Shown here: in pieces, positions 13,670-61,194 of the stretch
Layout: the number at the start of each line of letters is the position of its first letter
Numbering within the stretch: the stretch's first letter is position 1
Origin: a virus
Virus record (IMG/VR): IMGVR_UViG_3300017963_000188
Location: 62,001 to 126,000 of that record
Length of the DNA: 64,000 bases
Direction: 5' to 3' (one strand)
The notes under the pieces: model-generated
Database searches by the model: none
What the model saw: only the letters and a program-made list of their open reading frames with translations
Told to the model about the DNA's origin: nothing
Translations under genes and position numbers: made by a program

Positions 13670-14680
13670 ATGGGTAATGAAAAATACCAGGATGGAAGCA
13701 GCATCTGTGTTGTGGCAAAAGTACCTGAACATATCGCTTGTCAATTCCCAAAAGATGCTGATGAAGATGCTGATGATCCACATATCACAGTGCTTTATAT
13801 TGGTGATATGCCTAGAGAGAAGACAGGCACATTAATCAATACCTGCAAAAACATTTTTGGTCAGATACCATTTTTACGAGCAAGGTTAGATTCGAAGGTC
13901 TCATACTTTGACCCCTCAGATAGCTCAGAGGGTCGTAGAGTAGCTAAACTAGATGTTAAATGCCCTGACCTTCATTATTTCCACAAGCGTCTCTGGGACG
14001 AATTAGAAGGTGCTGGTGTGGATGTAGCTCATTCATTCCCTGAATACCATCCTCATGTCACTTTGGATTACATAGAACCAGACACTGAATATGAAGGTCC
14101 AGTACCTAATGGTGAATGGGATATTGATGGTATTGAGATTTGGGGGTGGGAAGATCATATCAGAATCCCGTTTATCAGCATTGAAATCATAGCTGATAAT
14201 GTTGTAGCTAGGGTCTTAGCAAACCGTGTAGTTTCTAGAGTTATGCAAGCACAATGGTCACGTCTAAAAAATCACTTCAATGTCAGAAACCCTCTGTTCC
14301 ATGCCACTACTGGACCCCGTGCTATGAAAGTCATTGAAGAAGGATTCAAATCAGATAGTGGATATTCTGATTACGGGATGGGAAATGTTTTGGGAGTCTC
14401 TTTCTCAAGAAGCCTCGAATATCTATTAGGAGGTCACTTCGGGAATGCTATCTTTGTGGTAGATAAAGATGAACTTGGGAGCAAGTTCAAAGTAGATCAT
14501 GTAGAGTCTTATCCAGAAGAACGAGAAGAGAGGGTAGTCACCAAACACCTTCCACCCAAATACATCAAGGGATTAATCTTCAATGGTAAGCTATTGAAAG
14601 GAGACTTCCCATACTTTTCATCACTACCTTTTCCAGTTGTGCATCGACCAAAAAGTGACTGGGTATTGATTGGAGAATGA
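13670..14680 (+). CDS. 2H phosphoesterase fused to an ADP-ribosyltransferase-like domain
   Basis: A 336-residue two-domain protein behind GGAGGTACAAT. Residues 1-175 carry the paired HxT motifs of 2H phosphoesterases: H38-I-T40 and H129-V-T131. Such enzymes open 2',3' or 1'',2'' cyclic phosphates. Residues 179-197 (ARVLANRVVSRVMQ) resemble the SRVI leaders used by other proteins here. Residues 205-336 look like an ART fold: FHATT (210-214), GVSFSRSL (242-249) and an acidic EEREERV (283-289) that could supply the catalytic Glu. The ART call is weaker than the 2H call. The two activities could act on tRNA ends and ADP-ribosylated by-products. Confidence 0.75.
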   Translation: MGNEKYQDGSSICVVAKVPEHIACQFPKDADEDADDPHITVLYIGDMPREKTGTLINTCKNIFGQIPFLRARLDSKVSYFDPSDSSEGRRVAKLDVKCPDLHYFHKRLWDELEGAGVDVAHSFPEYHPHVTLDYIEPDTEYEGPVPNGEWDIDGIEIWGWEDHIRIPFISIEIIADNVVARVLANRVVSRVMQAQWSRLKNHFNVRNPLFHATTGPRAMKVIEEGFKSDSGYSDYGMGNVLGVSFSRSLEYLLGGHFGNAIFVVDKDELGSKFKVDHVESYPEEREERVVTKHLPPKYIKGLIFNGKLLKGDFPYFSSLPFPVVHRPKSDWVLIGE

Positions 14681-31494: not shown

Positions 31495-33450
31495 TTATTG
31501 ATCTAGAACAGACCTGATCTTTTTTGAGATTTCACTGAGACTGAAAGGCTTTTGAATAAATCCATCACAACCTTTTTCCAACACATATGAAGCTTTCCCA
31601 TTGATGTTGTATCCACTCATCAAGACAACTTTCACTTTTGGGTTTATCTTCTTCAGAGTGTCATATATCTCTGGACCCCCAATTCCTGGCAGCACCATAT
31701 CTAACAATATCAAGTCGATACTGTCTTGATGGTTCTTATAGAAATCAATAGCTTTTAAACCATCTTTTTCAGGATAAACCGTATATCCTATAGTACTGAG
31801 AAGTCTAGTAGCTGTTTTTATGATAATATCTTCATCATCTATCAACAATATACATTCTGATCCTATCTCTAACTGATCATCCTCTATTTTATTTTCAAAT
31901 AAGATCTCTTCAGCTCTGGGGAGATACACATTTACGGTAGTCCCTTCTCCTTCAACACTATGTAGAGAAATATCCCCCTCATGATTTTTGATGATACCAT
32001 ATGCTGAAGATAAGCCAAGACCAGAACCACGTCCTACTTCTTTGGTTGTGTAGAACGGATCAAAGGCTCGTTCTATTGTTTTATTACTCATCCCACACCC
32101 AGTATCTGTCACAGATAACTTGATATAATCACCAGGTTTTAAATGAAGAGATCCTATTTCAGATACTGATATATTTGAAGTAGTAATATAAAGATCACCT
32201 CCTGTTGGCATAGCTTGACTAGCATTGACAAACAGGTTCATAAGAACTTGTTCTATCTGGCCGGGATCTGCACTGACACTCCAAATATCACTCTTCAGAC
32301 TTTTATGCACAACAATATCTTTCCTAGTTCTGCTAAATATACCAATGCTATTGTTGACTAATACATTTATGTTTGAGGTTATGATATTTGAGGTGTCTAT
32401 GCCACGACGGGCAAAGCTAAGAAGTTGTGCAGTCAGATCAGCAGCTCTCTTACCACAAATCTCTATATCTATAAGTTCTTGGCTAGTCTTCCCTTCTTTC
32501 AAACGAAGTAAAGTAGCATTTGATAGTATACCCATCAAAAGGTTGTTGAAATCATGTGCTATTCCACCAGCCAAGGTTCCAATAGCTTCCATTTTCTGAG
32601 CATGGTAAAATTGAGTTTCAAGAGCTTTTCGATCTGTGATGTCCTCTCCATAACCAATACTATATTTTATATTACCCTCGTGATCATACAACACTGAATT
32701 GTGCCAAGCTATGAGTCTTTCTTCTCCAGTCTTTGTCAGTACAGGATTTTCATAGTATTCAGATAATTGTATTTCACCATTTATCAGATTATTAAAGACT
32801 TGTTTTACTTGAGGCACATATCTTTTTGGTAAGAAGTTTTCAAACCAGTTTTTACCAATTATATGCCTACAATCATCAGAATTATAACCTAATATCTGAC
32901 ATCCTTTCTTGTTTATAAGAGCAACATTTTGATTAGAATCAATTGTTACAAAAATCACATTAGCTACATTAAGGAACTCTTTCACTGTATTTTTTTCCAT
33001 CTTTAATTCTTTTTCTACTTCATATTGTTTAGTCACATCTACGATCTGTATTATTAGACCACCTTTAAAAAATGATGTGTGAAAAGAAGCTACTTTCTCA
33101 GCACCATCTTTACACGTTATTCTGAATACAGTGCAATCCTGTCCCTCACCCTTAAGAGCTTGTGTCACATTTTTCCAAACAAAATCTCTATATTCTCCAT
33201 CAGGATATAACCTTTCTACCCATTCTCCTACATTTTTGATTTCATCAGTAGTGTACCCAATGAATTTCTCTAGAGCTTTATTGAAAAGTACAATAGAACC
33301 ATCCGACCGTCCTATAGCCGTTGGTATTGGACTTTGAAGCACAATTAACGGAAAGCATAATTCAGAGTCTAGGATATCAACATCATATTCTGGAGATCCC
33401 CTAATATCTGCTAGAGCTTTCGCTTCTTTGTCCGACATTCCTTTGATCAT
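31495..33450 (-). CDS. Hybrid sensor histidine kinase (PAS-PAS-HisKA-HATPase-receiver)
   Basis: A 651-residue complete hybrid kinase. Two PAS domains occupy about 35-140 and 155-275. HisKA follows with MEAIGTLAGGIAHDFNNLL (phosphorylated His). The ATPase has NLFVNASQAMP (N), DTGCGM (G1) and GRGSGLGLSSAYGI (G2). The receiver (about 530-650) has LLIDDED, LILLDMVLPG (phosphorylated Asp), LMSGY and IQKPF. There is no membrane helix, so it senses a soluble signal. Such an intact kinase is rare in phages and was probably taken from a host; the style recalls Desulfobacterota. It lies directly downstream of the leucine tRNA array. Confidence 0.93.
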   Translation of the reverse strand: MIKGMSDKEAKALADIRGSPEYDVDILDSELCFPLIVLQSPIPTAIGRSDGSIVLFNKALEKFIGYTTDEIKNVGEWVERLYPDGEYRDFVWKNVTQALKGEGQDCTVFRITCKDGAEKVASFHTSFFKGGLIIQIVDVTKQYEVEKELKMEKNTVKEFLNVANVIFVTIDSNQNVALINKKGCQILGYNSDDCRHIIGKNWFENFLPKRYVPQVKQVFNNLINGEIQLSEYYENPVLTKTGEERLIAWHNSVLYDHEGNIKYSIGYGEDITDRKALETQFYHAQKMEAIGTLAGGIAHDFNNLLMGILSNATLLRLKEGKTSQELIDIEICGKRAADLTAQLLSFARRGIDTSNIITSNINVLVNNSIGIFSRTRKDIVVHKSLKSDIWSVSADPGQIEQVLMNLFVNASQAMPTGGDLYITTSNISVSEIGSLHLKPGDYIKLSVTDTGCGMSNKTIERAFDPFYTTKEVGRGSGLGLSSAYGIIKNHEGDISLHSVEGEGTTVNVYLPRAEEILFENKIEDDQLEIGSECILLIDDEDIIIKTATRLLSTIGYTVYPEKDGLKAIDFYKNHQDSIDLILLDMVLPGIGGPEIYDTLKKINPKVKVVLMSGYNINGKASYVLEKGCDGFIQKPFSLSEISKKIRSVLDQ

Positions 33451-33514: not shown

Positions 33515-33602
33515 TGGTGCCGGGGGAGGGAATCGAACCCTCACGAGATTTCTCTCATCGGATTTTGAATCCGACGTGTCTACCTAGTTCCACCACCCCG
33601 GC
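33515..33602 (-). tRNA. tRNA-Leu(CAA)
   Basis: An 88-base class II tRNA. Acceptor GCCGGGG pairs with CCCCGGC, anticodon loop TTCAAAA, long variable arm, encoded CCA. It decodes TTG. Last in transcription of six adjacent leucine tRNAs. Confidence 0.95.
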
Positions 33603-33606
33603 TATA

Positions 33607-33692
33607 TGGTGCTGGAGGAGGGATTTGAACCCTCAATCCCTTACGGGCATAGCGTCCTGAACGCTACGTGTATACCGTTCCACCACTCCAGC
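33607..33692 (-). tRNA. tRNA-Leu(CAG)
   Basis: An 86-base class II tRNA. Acceptor GCTGGAG pairs with CTCCAGC, anticodon loop TTCAGGA, encoded CCA. It decodes CTG. Confidence 0.95.
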
Positions 33693-33700
33693 AAATTGTT

Positions 33701-33788
33701 TGGTGCCGGAAGAGGGAATCGAACCCCCACGGGACAAGTCCCACTAGGACCTAAACCTAGCGTGTCTGCCTAGTTCCACCATTCCGGC
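33701..33788 (-). tRNA. tRNA-Leu(TAG)
   Basis: An 88-base class II tRNA. Acceptor GCCGGAA pairs with TTCCGGC, anticodon loop TTTAGGT, encoded CCA. It is a second Leu(TAG), with a different body from the copy at 30.2 kb. Confidence 0.95.
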
Positions 33789-33789
33789 C

Positions 33790-33875
33790 TGGTGTCTGGG
33801 GAGGGGATCGAACCCTCAAGCCTTTCGGCACAGCGACCTCAACGCTGCGTGTCTACCTAATTTCACCACCCAGAC
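33790..33875 (-). tRNA. tRNA-Leu(GAG)
   Basis: An 86-base class II tRNA. Acceptor GTCTGGG pairs with CCCAGAC, anticodon loop TTGAGGT, encoded CCA. It decodes CTC and CTT. Only one base separates it from the next gene. Confidence 0.95.
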
Positions 33876-33877
33876 TT

Positions 33878-33962
33878 TGGTGCTCAGGGAGGGATTCGAA
33901 CCCTCAAGCCTTTCGGCACAGGATTCTTAGTCCTGCGTGTATACCAGTTCCACCACCCGAGC
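33878..33962 (-). tRNA. tRNA-Leu(AAG), unusual A34
   Basis: An 85-base class II tRNA. Acceptor GCTCGGG pairs with CCTGAGC (one G-T pair). The anticodon stem CAGGA/TCCTG encloses CTAAGAA, giving anticodon AAG with A37. A34 is rare in bacterial tRNAs outside Arg(ACG) and needs deamination to inosine to read widely. CTN-reading leucine tRNAs normally have G37, as the three CTN-reading neighbours do. Confidence 0.85.
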
Positions 33963-33969
33963 ATATTTT

Positions 33970-34056
33970 TGGTGCTGGGGGAGGGAATCGAACCCTCACG
34001 ACACAAGGCCAGGGGATTTTAAGTCCCCAGTGTCTACCTAATTCCACCACCCCAGC
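33970..34056 (-). tRNA. tRNA-Leu(TAA)
   Basis: An 87-base class II tRNA. Acceptor GCTGGGG pairs with CCCCAGC, anticodon loop CTTAAAA, encoded CCA. It decodes TTA. First of the leucine array in the direction of transcription. Confidence 0.95.
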
Positions 34057-34297: not shown

Positions 34298-35224
34298 CTA
34301 AAAAATACTTCCGTCTTCATTAAATTCATATTCATTGACCATGATATTTTCATCTACATTCTCATCAGCCATCAACCAATCATATTCTTTTTCAAGAGCT
34401 TGGTAGTAATCTTGAGCATAGTATCGAGCTTGTTCAAGACCCCATTCATTGAGTTCTTCTACTTCTCTTTCAAGAGCCTCATCAAACTTGTCTACTTCAT
34501 CTTCTGACCAGTCATCAGCATCTTCATAATTATCTACAGATGGAGCACGGATGTCGTCACCGTGCATTGTATTTGAATGATAGTAATGCCCAGAATGAGT
34601 GATGTTGAGGTGATAATCCTCATAGTCTTCACCACCCATTTCTTCCATGAGCTTTACAAAAGAAGGGAATTGCTTTTCAGCACCTTCACTATGAATGAGC
34701 TTGAGAAGGTCTACAGAACCTTCCCAGCTTGCACCGTCACCCTGACTAGCAAAACCAGAAAAGTACATCTTGTCAATGTCAAAACCCTTTTTCTCACCAT
34801 CTTCCTTGAACTGCTCTTCAAGAAAATCCCACCACTCGTAATCAAGGGCTCCATCACGCCACCATTCACGAGCCTTATCTTTAGCTTGATCGTCAAGTTC
34901 GTCAAACTTGTAGACCTCTTTTTCAACGGTTCTTGGGAGAGCTACTTTTCTTTGTGACTGATATCTATACATGTTCGACCTCTTTGCTGCCTTGTTGAAA
35001 TACTTTACTGCCTCATCTTCTTTCTTGAAGTAATGACCCCAATAGAAACCATTGCCTTTAGACCATCTCCAGACACCCCAAGGTGATGCTGAAGAGTCAG
35101 AAAAACCTAAGGCATACCATTCCTGACCATCCTTACGTTTCACATTCCTGATATCGTATGCTCCAGCACTGGTTTCCATTCCTGGGGGTAACTGCACTCC
35201 TGCTGCTTTTTTATATCTATACAT
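34298..35224 (-). CDS. MYRY-leader acidic protein with an internal second MYRY
   Basis: A 308-residue protein. It starts MYRYKKAAGVQLPPGME; residue 85 starts again as MYRYQSQRKVALPR. The first unit (20-84) is beta-rich with Trp. The second (100-308) is acidic and holds DKMYFSGFASQGDGASWEG, a motif I recall from uncharacterised phage proteins (SGF-SQGDGA). The repeated leader with its own Met suggests two leader-type proteins fused, perhaps cleaved apart later. Confidence 0.75.
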   Translation of the reverse strand: MYRYKKAAGVQLPPGMETSAGAYDIRNVKRKDGQEWYALGFSDSSASPWGVWRWSKGNGFYWGHYFKKEDEAVKYFNKAAKRSNMYRYQSQRKVALPRTVEKEVYKFDELDDQAKDKAREWWRDGALDYEWWDFLEEQFKEDGEKKGFDIDKMYFSGFASQGDGASWEGSVDLLKLIHSEGAEKQFPSFVKLMEEMGGEDYEDYHLNITHSGHYYHSNTMHGDDIRAPSVDNYEDADDWSEDEVDKFDEALEREVEELNEWGLEQARYYAQDYYQALEKEYDWLMADENVDENIMVNEYEFNEDGSIF

Positions 35225-46076: not shown

Positions 46077-46709
46077 TTACTCTTCCATGTATTCTACCCA
46101 CTTCTCTACATCACGCTCCATATCATTGATCTCATGGAGTTCAGCATACTCAAAGACTTGAGCAGCCCTATCTTCAAGATAGGCTTCTTCCCATGCCTGA
46201 TCATAGAATGGGGAGTCATACTGACCAAGCCAGGCAGCCCAGTTCCATTCCTTAGCATCTTCATGCATAGGTGAGTCTGAGAATTGGTAGAAAAGACCTG
46301 AAGGCTCATAGTCTTCAGATTCATCCCCAAGAGATACTGTGACTGTCATTCCCACATAGCCAAGACCAGAATTTACATCCCAAGTCACTTGTACTTCAAC
46401 ATCAGGATGAATGTCTTTAAGGGCATTGAGAACTTCTTCTTTCACTGCTTCAGCAGTCTGGTCAAACTTTTCACTGGTATCCAATTCATAGAAAGTTTCC
46501 ATGCTGCGAGCAAGTTCTTTTTGAACTTCAGGCTTTATGGTGACGAAATCAACCTCATCCTCATCGGTTCTGGTGACTTCAACATCATCCCAAAGGTTGT
46601 ATTCATCCAAGAAAGAGCTATATTCTTCAGTGTCAATCTCTTCACCAAAATCAGGCAAATAGGACTGTGCCTTCTTTGATCGTTCAATAACTCGTGATAT
46701 GAGATCCAT
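46077..46709 (-). CDS. Leader-bearing acidic protein (SRVIxR type)
   Basis: A 210-residue very acidic protein. The leader MDLISRVIERSKKAQSYL closely matches MDIVSRVIQRYLRASRYD of the LigD-like protein at 60.7 kb, although the bodies are unrelated. ATG at 46709 is chosen because AGGAGGT ends seven bases before it; ATG at 46715 is too close. The rest has a strand pair (VTWDVNSGLGYVGMTVTVSLG) and a Trp-rich part (EWNWAAWLGQYDSPFYDQAW). Unknown function. Confidence 0.7.
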   Translation of the reverse strand: MDLISRVIERSKKAQSYLPDFGEEIDTEEYSSFLDEYNLWDDVEVTRTDEDEVDFVTIKPEVQKELARSMETFYELDTSEKFDQTAEAVKEEVLNALKDIHPDVEVQVTWDVNSGLGYVGMTVTVSLGDESEDYEPSGLFYQFSDSPMHEDAKEWNWAAWLGQYDSPFYDQAWEEAYLEDRAAQVFEYAELHEINDMERDVEKWVEYMEE

Positions 46710-46776
46710 TTCCATACCTCCTCAAGGTTTATCTATAGAGGTATAGAAATTAAAGAACTATTATAGAATGTGACTT

Positions 46777-55492: not shown

Positions 55493-56356
55493 ATGATAAT
55501 AAGACCGAAAGATTGGGAAGCTACAAGTGATGAAGCTGTAGATTTCTTGAACTCTATACAAAGACCAAAACACTATTATAGAGGTATGACCGATCAAGAA
55601 TATAAAGCTACGGTCGGTAAAGGTGATCCAGTCCAATCCACAGGAGCTTTCTCTCACAGTTCTGAAGGGACAAATTTCTCAGAATATCCTGCTGATGCTG
55701 AGAGCTATGTAAACTTTGGTCGTGATGACCCAAGAAGAACTGGGAAATCAAATTGGCTTGTAGAAGTAGCAGAAACCCCAACCATGTATCGAGACACTGA
55801 TGGGTACTACAAAGATAAAGAACCTGTAGATACCGTGACAAGGATATGGGAATTTTACCCCGAAGATGGAGCTATCAAGACTAGGAAAGTGAAGGGTAGT
55901 GATATGAGACTAGTGAATCGAGTTGCTCTTAGACATTTGTTTGCTAGATATGCTGATGAAGTTAAAAAAGAGCTGAAATACGATGTCAAGAATATGAAAG
56001 GTGTAGAAACAGTCAAAGAGTACCACAAGGAATTCACCCCTGGGTCACAGAAGGGTGGAGCTTTCCCTGATATGGACTTAATAGAAATGGTATGGGTCGT
56101 TGGTGATGGAGAACAAGGGAACTACACAGTGATGTGTGAACTCTATGTAGAAAAGGGTGGGATCTTACTTCGAGATGAAGGGCCTCAAGAAACCTTTGCA
56201 GGTTCAGTTCGAGGTGAAGCTGCTCTTGGACCTAAGGGAGGGCTTCAATCTGTAAGACAGATCCAAGGTGAAAAGTTCACTGGTAAGCTGGATGAAGTGG
56301 TTGGTAAGTTCGACAAAGCCATTGGTAAAATGATTCAACAACTTGAAGCTATGTAA
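55493..56356 (+). CDS. ADP-ribosyltransferase-like protein with an internal leader motif
   Basis: A 287-residue protein behind AGAGGTG. Residues 25-95 resemble an R-S-E-type ART: HYYRGM (27-32, NAD-binding Arg), QSTGAFSHSS (48-57, the STS-like strand) and later acidic residues; no ExE is certain, so the call is tentative. At residue 138 a new unit begins with MRLVNRVALRHLFARYADEV, like the SRVI leaders and beginning with its own Met. Residues 155-287 form a second beta-rich domain. It looks like two leader-type proteins joined. Confidence 0.6.
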   Translation: MIIRPKDWEATSDEAVDFLNSIQRPKHYYRGMTDQEYKATVGKGDPVQSTGAFSHSSEGTNFSEYPADAESYVNFGRDDPRRTGKSNWLVEVAETPTMYRDTDGYYKDKEPVDTVTRIWEFYPEDGAIKTRKVKGSDMRLVNRVALRHLFARYADEVKKELKYDVKNMKGVETVKEYHKEFTPGSQKGGAFPDMDLIEMVWVVGDGEQGNYTVMCELYVEKGGILLRDEGPQETFAGSVRGEAALGPKGGLQSVRQIQGEKFTGKLDEVVGKFDKAIGKMIQQLEAM

Positions 56357-59763: not shown

Positions 59764-60219
59764 TCATCTTCCCTTAATATACTCTTCGAACACAATCAAA
59801 TCAATATCAGTTTTTGATCCTATTCCATCTAGAACTTCTTTCACTTTATCCCAATCCAAACCTCCAAGTCCAGCACCTATTCTTGGAAGACCAATAGTCT
59901 TGAGATTTATTTGCTCAGAAGCTCCTACCATCCGTCTCACAGATGCTCTAATTGCATCAAGACGAGCCTTTGTTCTCCACGATACCTGTGTGCCCAAGTT
60001 GAATATGATCGTCCCTTCAGGACTCCTCCAGGCAAATACAGAGCCTAGTTTAAACTCCCTTGCTTTACATCTTCTCCGATACTCCTGATACATCTCAGGA
60101 TATCGTGATCTGAATTCAAGAGCTATGCCTTTCCCCATAGCACCTTCACAATTACATCCATGAGCAATAGCATCTAGGGAGTGATGGAAAAGATCACCAG
60201 AAATGTATTTGACTGACAT
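59764..60219 (-). CDS. Macro-domain protein (ADP-ribose type)
   Basis: A 151-residue protein close to the small macro domains of the OARD1/Poa1 type: KYISGDLF, AHGCNCEGAMGKGIALEFRSRYP (ADP-ribose loop) and LPRIGAGLGGLDWDKV (second loop). Such proteins hydrolyse ADP-ribose-1''-phosphate or remove ADP-ribose from proteins. ATG at 60219 is chosen because the frame above runs through tRNA-Thr. It would act on products of the ADP-ribosyltransferase-like and 2H domains elsewhere (inference). Confidence 0.9.
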   Translation of the reverse strand: MSVKYISGDLFHHSLDAIAHGCNCEGAMGKGIALEFRSRYPEMYQEYRRRCKAREFKLGSVFAWRSPEGTIIFNLGTQVSWRTKARLDAIRASVRRMVGASEQINLKTIGLPRIGAGLGGLDWDKVKEVLDGIGSKTDIDLIVFEEYIKGR

Positions 60220-60231
60220 CTGCAATCCATT

Positions 60232-60306
60232 TGGAGCCGGTGAGTGGAATTGAACCACCAACCTACTGTTTACGAGACAGTTGCTCTACCGTTGAGCTAC
60301 ACCGGC
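60232..60306 (-). tRNA. tRNA-Thr(CGT)
   Basis: A 75-base tRNA. Acceptor GCCGGTG pairs with CACCGGC, anticodon loop CTCGTAA in stem ACTGT/ACAGT, T73, encoded CCA. Its first base is also the last base of the upstream stop codon TAG. Confidence 0.95.
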
Positions 60307-60666: not shown

Positions 60667-61194
60667 ATGGATATTGTCAGTAGAGTAATCCAACGCTATC
60701 TCAGAGCGTCTAGATACGATACAGATAGTCTTGAGCCTGGTTACATTGGAAAGTACGTGATACATGACCACAGGGCTCAGAACAGGCATTTTGATTTACG
60801 TTTAGAGTTCCCTACCAGCAAGGGAAAAGTTTTCCGTTCCTGGACCATTCCCAAACACACTATTCCCAAAAGTGTAGGTGATAAAGTCCTTGCCACAGAG
60901 ACAGAAGACCACCCAATGAGTTGGGGTGATGTTGTAGATTTTGATGAGACACATGAAATCCCTGAAGGTGAGTATGGTGCTGGTACTGTCAAACTCTATG
61001 ACAAAGGTAAATTTGCTCTCATAGATATGGACTATGATAGTAAGTATGTCTTCAAAATGATTGGTGAGAAACTTGATGGAGTCTGGTCTTTAGTCAAAAC
61101 TGATGGTAAGAACTTCCTTTTGGTACGTTCAAGTGCTGATCAACCAGAACTTGAAGAACCTGAAGTACAAAAAGCGATCAAAAAGTTGGAATAG
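60667..61194 (+). CDS. Stand-alone LigD-type 3'-phosphoesterase with SRVI leader
   Basis: A 175-residue protein. The leader MDIVSRVIQRYLRASRYD matches the one at 46.7 kb. The rest is the 3'-phosphoesterase domain of bacterial ligase LigD: YVIHDHRAQNRHFDLRLEF (metal-binding His and Asp), SWTIPK, ATETEDHPMSWGDV, IPEGEYGAGTVKLYDKG and EKLDGVWSLVKT. In LigD it trims 3' ribonucleotides and phosphates during end joining. Here neither the ligase nor the polymerase domain is attached. It probably heals DNA or RNA 3' ends. It follows AAGGAGATCCC. Confidence 0.9.
   Translation: MDIVSRVIQRYLRASRYDTDSLEPGYIGKYVIHDHRAQNRHFDLRLEFPTSKGKVFRSWTIPKHTIPKSVGDKVLATETEDHPMSWGDVVDFDETHEIPEGEYGAGTVKLYDKGKFALIDMDYDSKYVFKMIGEKLDGVWSLVKTDGKNFLLVRSSADQPELEEPEVQKAIKKLE

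Follow-up and report, generated by a model that had tools for sequence, protein, structure and literature searches.

Leader-like motifs at domain joints of two giant-phage proteins and their possible origin by gene fusion

Two proteins of a large or giant phage genome carry, at the joint between two domains, a short segment that resembles the N-terminus of other proteins of the same genome. Why should a peptide that opens some proteins stand inside others? Both genes, at 13.7 and 55.5 kb, lie in the window, the 64,000-base stretch analysed here (bases 62,001-126,000 of a 358,038-base virus record). Tentatively, and with rather less than even confidence, we favor the reading that the joint motifs are N-terminal leaders of downstream genes that were fused in frame behind other genes. 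The statistics cover the window and five 20-kb stretches, 164 kb of the 358 kb with 264 predicted proteins. The window also holds 28 minus-strand tRNA genes (30241-63801), with six tRNA-Leu genes clustered at 33515-34056, and a phage-encoded hybrid histidine kinase with PAS, HATPase and response-regulator domains (31495-33450).

An N-terminus of the SRVI type opens three proteins without detectable mutual similarity:

60667..61194, plus strand: 175-aa LigD 3'-phosphoesterase-domain protein (Pfam E 4e-21), N-terminal leader MDIVSRVIQRYLRAS (start MDIVSRVIQRYL)
46077..46715, minus strand: SRVI-leader protein, N-terminal leader MDLISRVIERSKKAQS (start MDLISRVIERSK); the better SD is at the second Met of the ORF
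Outside the window: 387-aa protein, N-terminal SRVI leader MSFESIVSRVVHRSS (start MSFESIVSRVVHRS)

The pattern [SANDTG]R[VI][IVAL]x[RK], written after the sequences had been viewed, occurs five times in the first 25 residues of the 264 proteins (6,600 residues in total) and five times in the other 41,290 residues (p 0.007). The full leader, written as a degenerate DNA pattern, gave no match in the viral contigs, and a LigD-like relative (L012) has no leader. Leader-like N-termini are seen in a 363-kb phage record (MGSVIHRVAARFAFKYEPKETK, L049 6695-6955; MDRLARTVAARWGLKVA, L027 9081-9590), another giant phage, which also has a solo ART-like module. The leader may be a short basic amphipathic helix and act as an address tag; possibly it directs to the capsid those proteins that are injected along with the DNA.

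Two further peptides, MYRY and LRRIAK-like, are stronger N-terminal tags than SRVI. Counted with patterns that were also written after the sequences had been viewed, MYRY occurs eight times in the first 25 residues and twice internally (p 4e-6; 264 predicted proteins), and the LRRIAK-like tag five times and once. Seven predicted proteins start with MYRY (window 3200, 34298 and 39808; L013 5148 and 5669; L014 1021 and 1460) and mostly continue with basic residues; a second, internal MYRY is found in those at L013 5148 and window 34298. The tag L[RK][RK][IL]A[RKE] is found in small proteins (window 10353 and 35651; L013 9369; L014 680 and 15797), and its internal copy is at residue 111 of the protein at window 2325. 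The protein at L014 1460-2950 (496 aa) has, after its MYRY start, a piece of phrog_871 (260-291) and phrog_1915 (373-495), with short S/K/A-rich linkers. An AT-rich WTTTATA box, often TATTTATAT, lies upstream of the genes at window 55493, 10353, 2325, 35651, 13670 and others. Nine of the 20 tagged genes, the 55.5-kb gene included, have it in the 100 upstream bases, against 10 of the 181 others (p 7e-6, a post hoc comparison), which gives a lead to a shared, perhaps late, promoter of the tagged genes.

The 55.5-kb locus has the following features:

55493..56356, plus strand: 287-aa ORF with N-terminal module, motif and second domain; SD energy -7.3
55493..55891, plus strand: N-terminal ART-like module, residues 1-133, delimited from relatives, alignments and AF2
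55904..55963, plus strand: leader-like motif MRLVNRVALRHLFARYADEV, residues 138-157, from its Met in register with the N-terminal leaders
55904..55906, plus strand: in-frame ATG, a possible second start or relic of the start of a fused gene; upstream GAAGGG, SD energy -4.7
55964..56353, plus strand: second domain, residues 158-287; relatives not found; pLDDT mostly <60

The motif begins at residue 138 of the 287-aa ORF, exactly where the first-pass annotation had seen it. Every 12-residue segment of the 264 predicted proteins (44,986 segments) was scored against the three SRVI leaders, with shuffled proteomes as the expectation. The 55.5-kb copy ranks 16th with a score of 14.0, and 7.6 equal segments are expected by chance; on sequence alone it does not exceed chance. 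From Met138 onward it aligns without offset to true gene starts (MRLVNRVALRHL / MDIVSRVIQRYL / MDLISRVIERSK), and MRLVNRVALR pairs from residue 1 with MDIVSRVIQR and MDLISRVIER. When the Met and the register are counted, 0.005 internal matches are expected in shuffled proteomes, for a pattern written with this case in view, and only then is the copy unusual. The SD energy at ATG 55904 is moderate: the median is -7.3 for predicted starts and -2.75 for internal Mets, 73% of predicted gene starts are as strong or stronger, and 19% of internal Mets are equally good. The triplets TAG TGA stand in another frame immediately ahead of this ATG, and the frame of the 287-aa ORF itself is open and in phase across both domains. 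Near this gene, the product of window 59764-60261 resembles, by eye only, a Macro (ADP-ribose binding) domain protein.

Relatives of the N-terminal module were gathered stepwise with a degenerate DNA pattern of its most conserved stretch, an alignment search, a genome scan and a last pattern. They share 34-50% identity over residues 1-132, and R30 G31 M32 T33, S49, S54 and E58 G59 T60 are invariant in the nine module sequences. Two relatives are solo. One, on the 7.8-kb contig L018, has a GTG start and a leader-like N-terminus MNLLRIAARVAAG directly before the module; the other, in the 363-kb phage record (L020/L027), has no clear leader. Both terminate at the equivalent of about residue 133, five residues short of the motif, and mainly for this reason the motif is placed outside the N-terminal domain. 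Other relatives are multidomain proteins, among them giant polyvalent proteins of ~1,600 to 3,500 aa. L026 combines an acetyltransferase, the module and Phage_Mu_F (Pfam E 1e-7; phrog_324 'head morphogenesis' E 2e-53), L028 combines the module, Pfam ART-PolyVal and phrog_324 (E 5.5e-43), and the module is also within long proteins of L025, L029, L030/L031, L032, L052 and L054. Judged from these matches, the N-terminal module is a member of a family that phages build into head proteins. Among viral structures it comes closest to a head-morphogenesis protein (probability 0.96, E 5e-3), probably by the same module. No head or MuF domain was matched in the 55.5-kb protein itself by Pfam or PHROG. 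The whole protein as query found no relatives in viral contigs or phages, and a search of two phage records with the second domain (158-287) gave, up to E 10, no match but the domain itself.

In the AF2 model of the 287-aa protein (nine sequences), block means of pLDDT for the N-terminal module are mostly 74-91, with one block at 53. Residues 136-146 are below 50, and a single helix, 135-167, takes the motif into the poorly predicted second half. The expectation that the motif is a free linker is answered in part: the model places it outside the N-terminal fold, but the helix may either be free or open the second domain. A fold search with the full-length model was uninformative owing to its poor second half, and a second model was made of the ART-like module alone.

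The first-pass annotation had called both this module and the C-terminal domain of the 13.7-kb protein ART-like. Neither is confirmed as an ART. The 55.5-kb N-terminal domain has no ART match in Pfam, PHROG, NCBIfam or PDB profiles, its module model (pLDDT 77, from nine sequences) has no PDB fold match, and ART profile searches with the 13.7-kb C-terminal domain gave no match. The hhalign comparisons of the module with the 13.7-kb C-terminus and with a Pfam ART-PolyVal domain gave nothing. R30-G, S49, S54 and EGT-x-FS of the module are, presumably, as expected for an ART of the R-S-E type; these motifs are suggestive only. Even if the leaders are not tags, the module would still be a family of phage domains that occurs as a part of head proteins and that Pfam, PHROG and NCBIfam profiles failed to recognise here.

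The second protein with a joint motif is arranged as follows:

13670..14680, plus strand: 336-aa ORF with 2H phosphoesterase domain, motif and ART-like C-terminal domain
13766..14143, plus strand: 2H / 2'-5' RNA ligase-like domain, residues 33-158 (PF13563 E 6.4e-8)
14207..14248, plus strand: leader-like motif ARVLANRVVSRVMQ, residues 180-193, with no in-frame ATG, GTG or TTG just ahead
14249..14677, plus strand: C-terminal domain, ART-like according to the first-pass annotation, residues 194-336; no profile or sequence relative found

Only the 2H half of this protein is firm. Its PF13563 score of 33.2 bits, against a curated cut-off of 27, places it in the 2H phosphoesterase superfamily; TIGR02258 also matches (E 1.9e-7, below cut-off), as does Rctr197k over residues 9-164. 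The whole protein as query matched viral contigs and phages in the 2H domain only. A pattern for the C-terminal domain picked up only noise and a phage protein family unrelated to it, and a Rhizobium phage match at E 9 was discarded. The motif is present as claimed, but it starts at residue 180 and not at 179. With a score of 20.3 it ranks first among the non-leader segments, and the shuffled expectation is 0.1. The claim that both joint copies match the SRVI leader holds beyond chance for the 13.7-kb copy but, by sequence alone, not for the 55.5-kb copy. The placement of the motifs between domains stands for both proteins: the solo module relatives end at ~133 in one, and the 2H match ends at 158 in the other.

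A third case is independent of the SRVI motif:

34298..35224, minus strand: 308-aa protein with the leader MYRY at residue 1 and at residue 85; phrog_5162 domain at 98-306

Residues 98-306 match the phrog_5162 profile from position 3 to 196 of 201 (E 6e-33), and in the listed phage relatives the alignment does not begin before residue 83-98. This near-full match and the start of the relatives indicate a whole standalone protein, with its front tag, fused behind another tagged segment. The SD energy at the internal Met of residue 85 is -6.5, intermediate between predicted starts (-7.3) and internal Mets (-2.75).

Under the fusion reading, the peptide at ATG 55904, about five residues past the end point of the solo relatives, would be the start of a fused downstream gene. 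MYRY at residue 85 of the 308-aa protein, directly ahead of a domain known elsewhere as a complete phage protein of its own, would likewise be the leader of the fused gene, and in the 13.7-kb protein the motif would head a separate C-terminal domain whose start codon is no longer present. A standalone relative of the 55.5-kb second domain, which would prove the fusion, was not found in phages or viral contigs. If the leader is an address tag of this kind, the 55.5-kb locus would yield an effector for injection that is coupled to another tagged protein, or else two products, of 287 aa and 150 aa. A possible but doubtful alternative is a chance resemblance to leaders: the segments at the joints would then be plain amphipathic helical linkers, or would form the opening helix of the domain that follows. 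The low rank of the 55.5-kb copy and the AF2 helix that runs from the motif into the second domain are what this alternative would predict, but the first rank of the 13.7-kb copy, the Met with its register in the 55.5-kb copy and the independent MYRY case argue against it.

It is unlikely, though worth keeping in view, that 55904 is a working internal start, or that an indel or an error of assembly has produced the apparent fusion, so that an upstream module and a 150-aa leader-bearing protein meet at a gene boundary. The SD energy of -4.7 is within the range of predicted gene starts, the other-frame stops lie right ahead of the ATG, and the solo relatives stop there; against this, the frame is open and in phase across both domains, and the explanation is inapplicable to the 13.7-kb protein. 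Very improbable, in our view, is the suggestion of the first-pass annotation that the internal copies are cleavage points of a polyprotein in head maturation. Tripeptides of the form [AS]xE do follow some leaders (ADE-157 in the 55.5-kb protein, SLE-23 in the LigD protein), although they are common by chance and carry little weight. No shared residue pattern was seen at the joints, and PF03420 (T4-type S77 prohead protease) gave no match in G000 or G001, with a weak control that matched one genome only, below the cut-off. Because the start Met is kept at the joint in two cases, gene fusion or internal starts fit better than cleavage.

Packaging of the leader-bearing proteins into the head is plausible because module relatives are parts of head proteins, because the L018 solo relative has a leader-like N-terminus, and because of the parallel with T4 Alt. 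The T4 portal has no profile match in this genome, with a weak control. It seems improbable that a portable tag set of the SRVI, LRRIAK and MYRY types loads many unrelated enzymes into the head, and that internal tags give each cargo domain its own address.

Several known systems resemble parts of this arrangement. In RNA repair, a 2H phosphoesterase is found with a KptA-type ART (PMC9503650); here the 2H domain of the 13.7-kb protein adjoins a domain called ART-like, but this C-terminal domain has no confirmed KptA or ART identity. Polyvalent and MuF proteins contain effector domains (Iyer et al. 2017, PMC5512222). Similarly, module relatives here are fused to MuF or head-morphogenesis domains in long multidomain proteins, whereas the 55.5-kb protein is small, has no head-domain fusion and has a leader-like motif at the joint instead. 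The propeptides of phiKZ and SPN3US ejection proteins are mostly >100 residues and are cut at AxE/SxE (PMC5694885). Those, too, are giant phages in which N-terminal peptides have been proposed as guides of proteins into the head, but the leader here has ~12 residues.

The closest parallel is T4, in which Alt and the internal proteins IPI-III bear capsid targeting sequences and Alt is an ART with a short N-terminal propeptide (PMC9026906). Unlike in T4, internal copies exist here as well, two ART-like proteins carry the peptide internally, and a gp21-type protease was not found by profile. As in Alt and IPI-III, a short N-terminal peptide is common to otherwise unrelated proteins, three in this genome, for which packaging and injection are proposed. 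Should the leaders prove to be address tags, they would tell, for the hundreds of unknown proteins of giant phages, which ones are carried in the virion; the copies inside proteins would additionally capture gene fusions under way, and the capsid-targeting principle of T4 would extend to another phage lineage through unrelated sequence.
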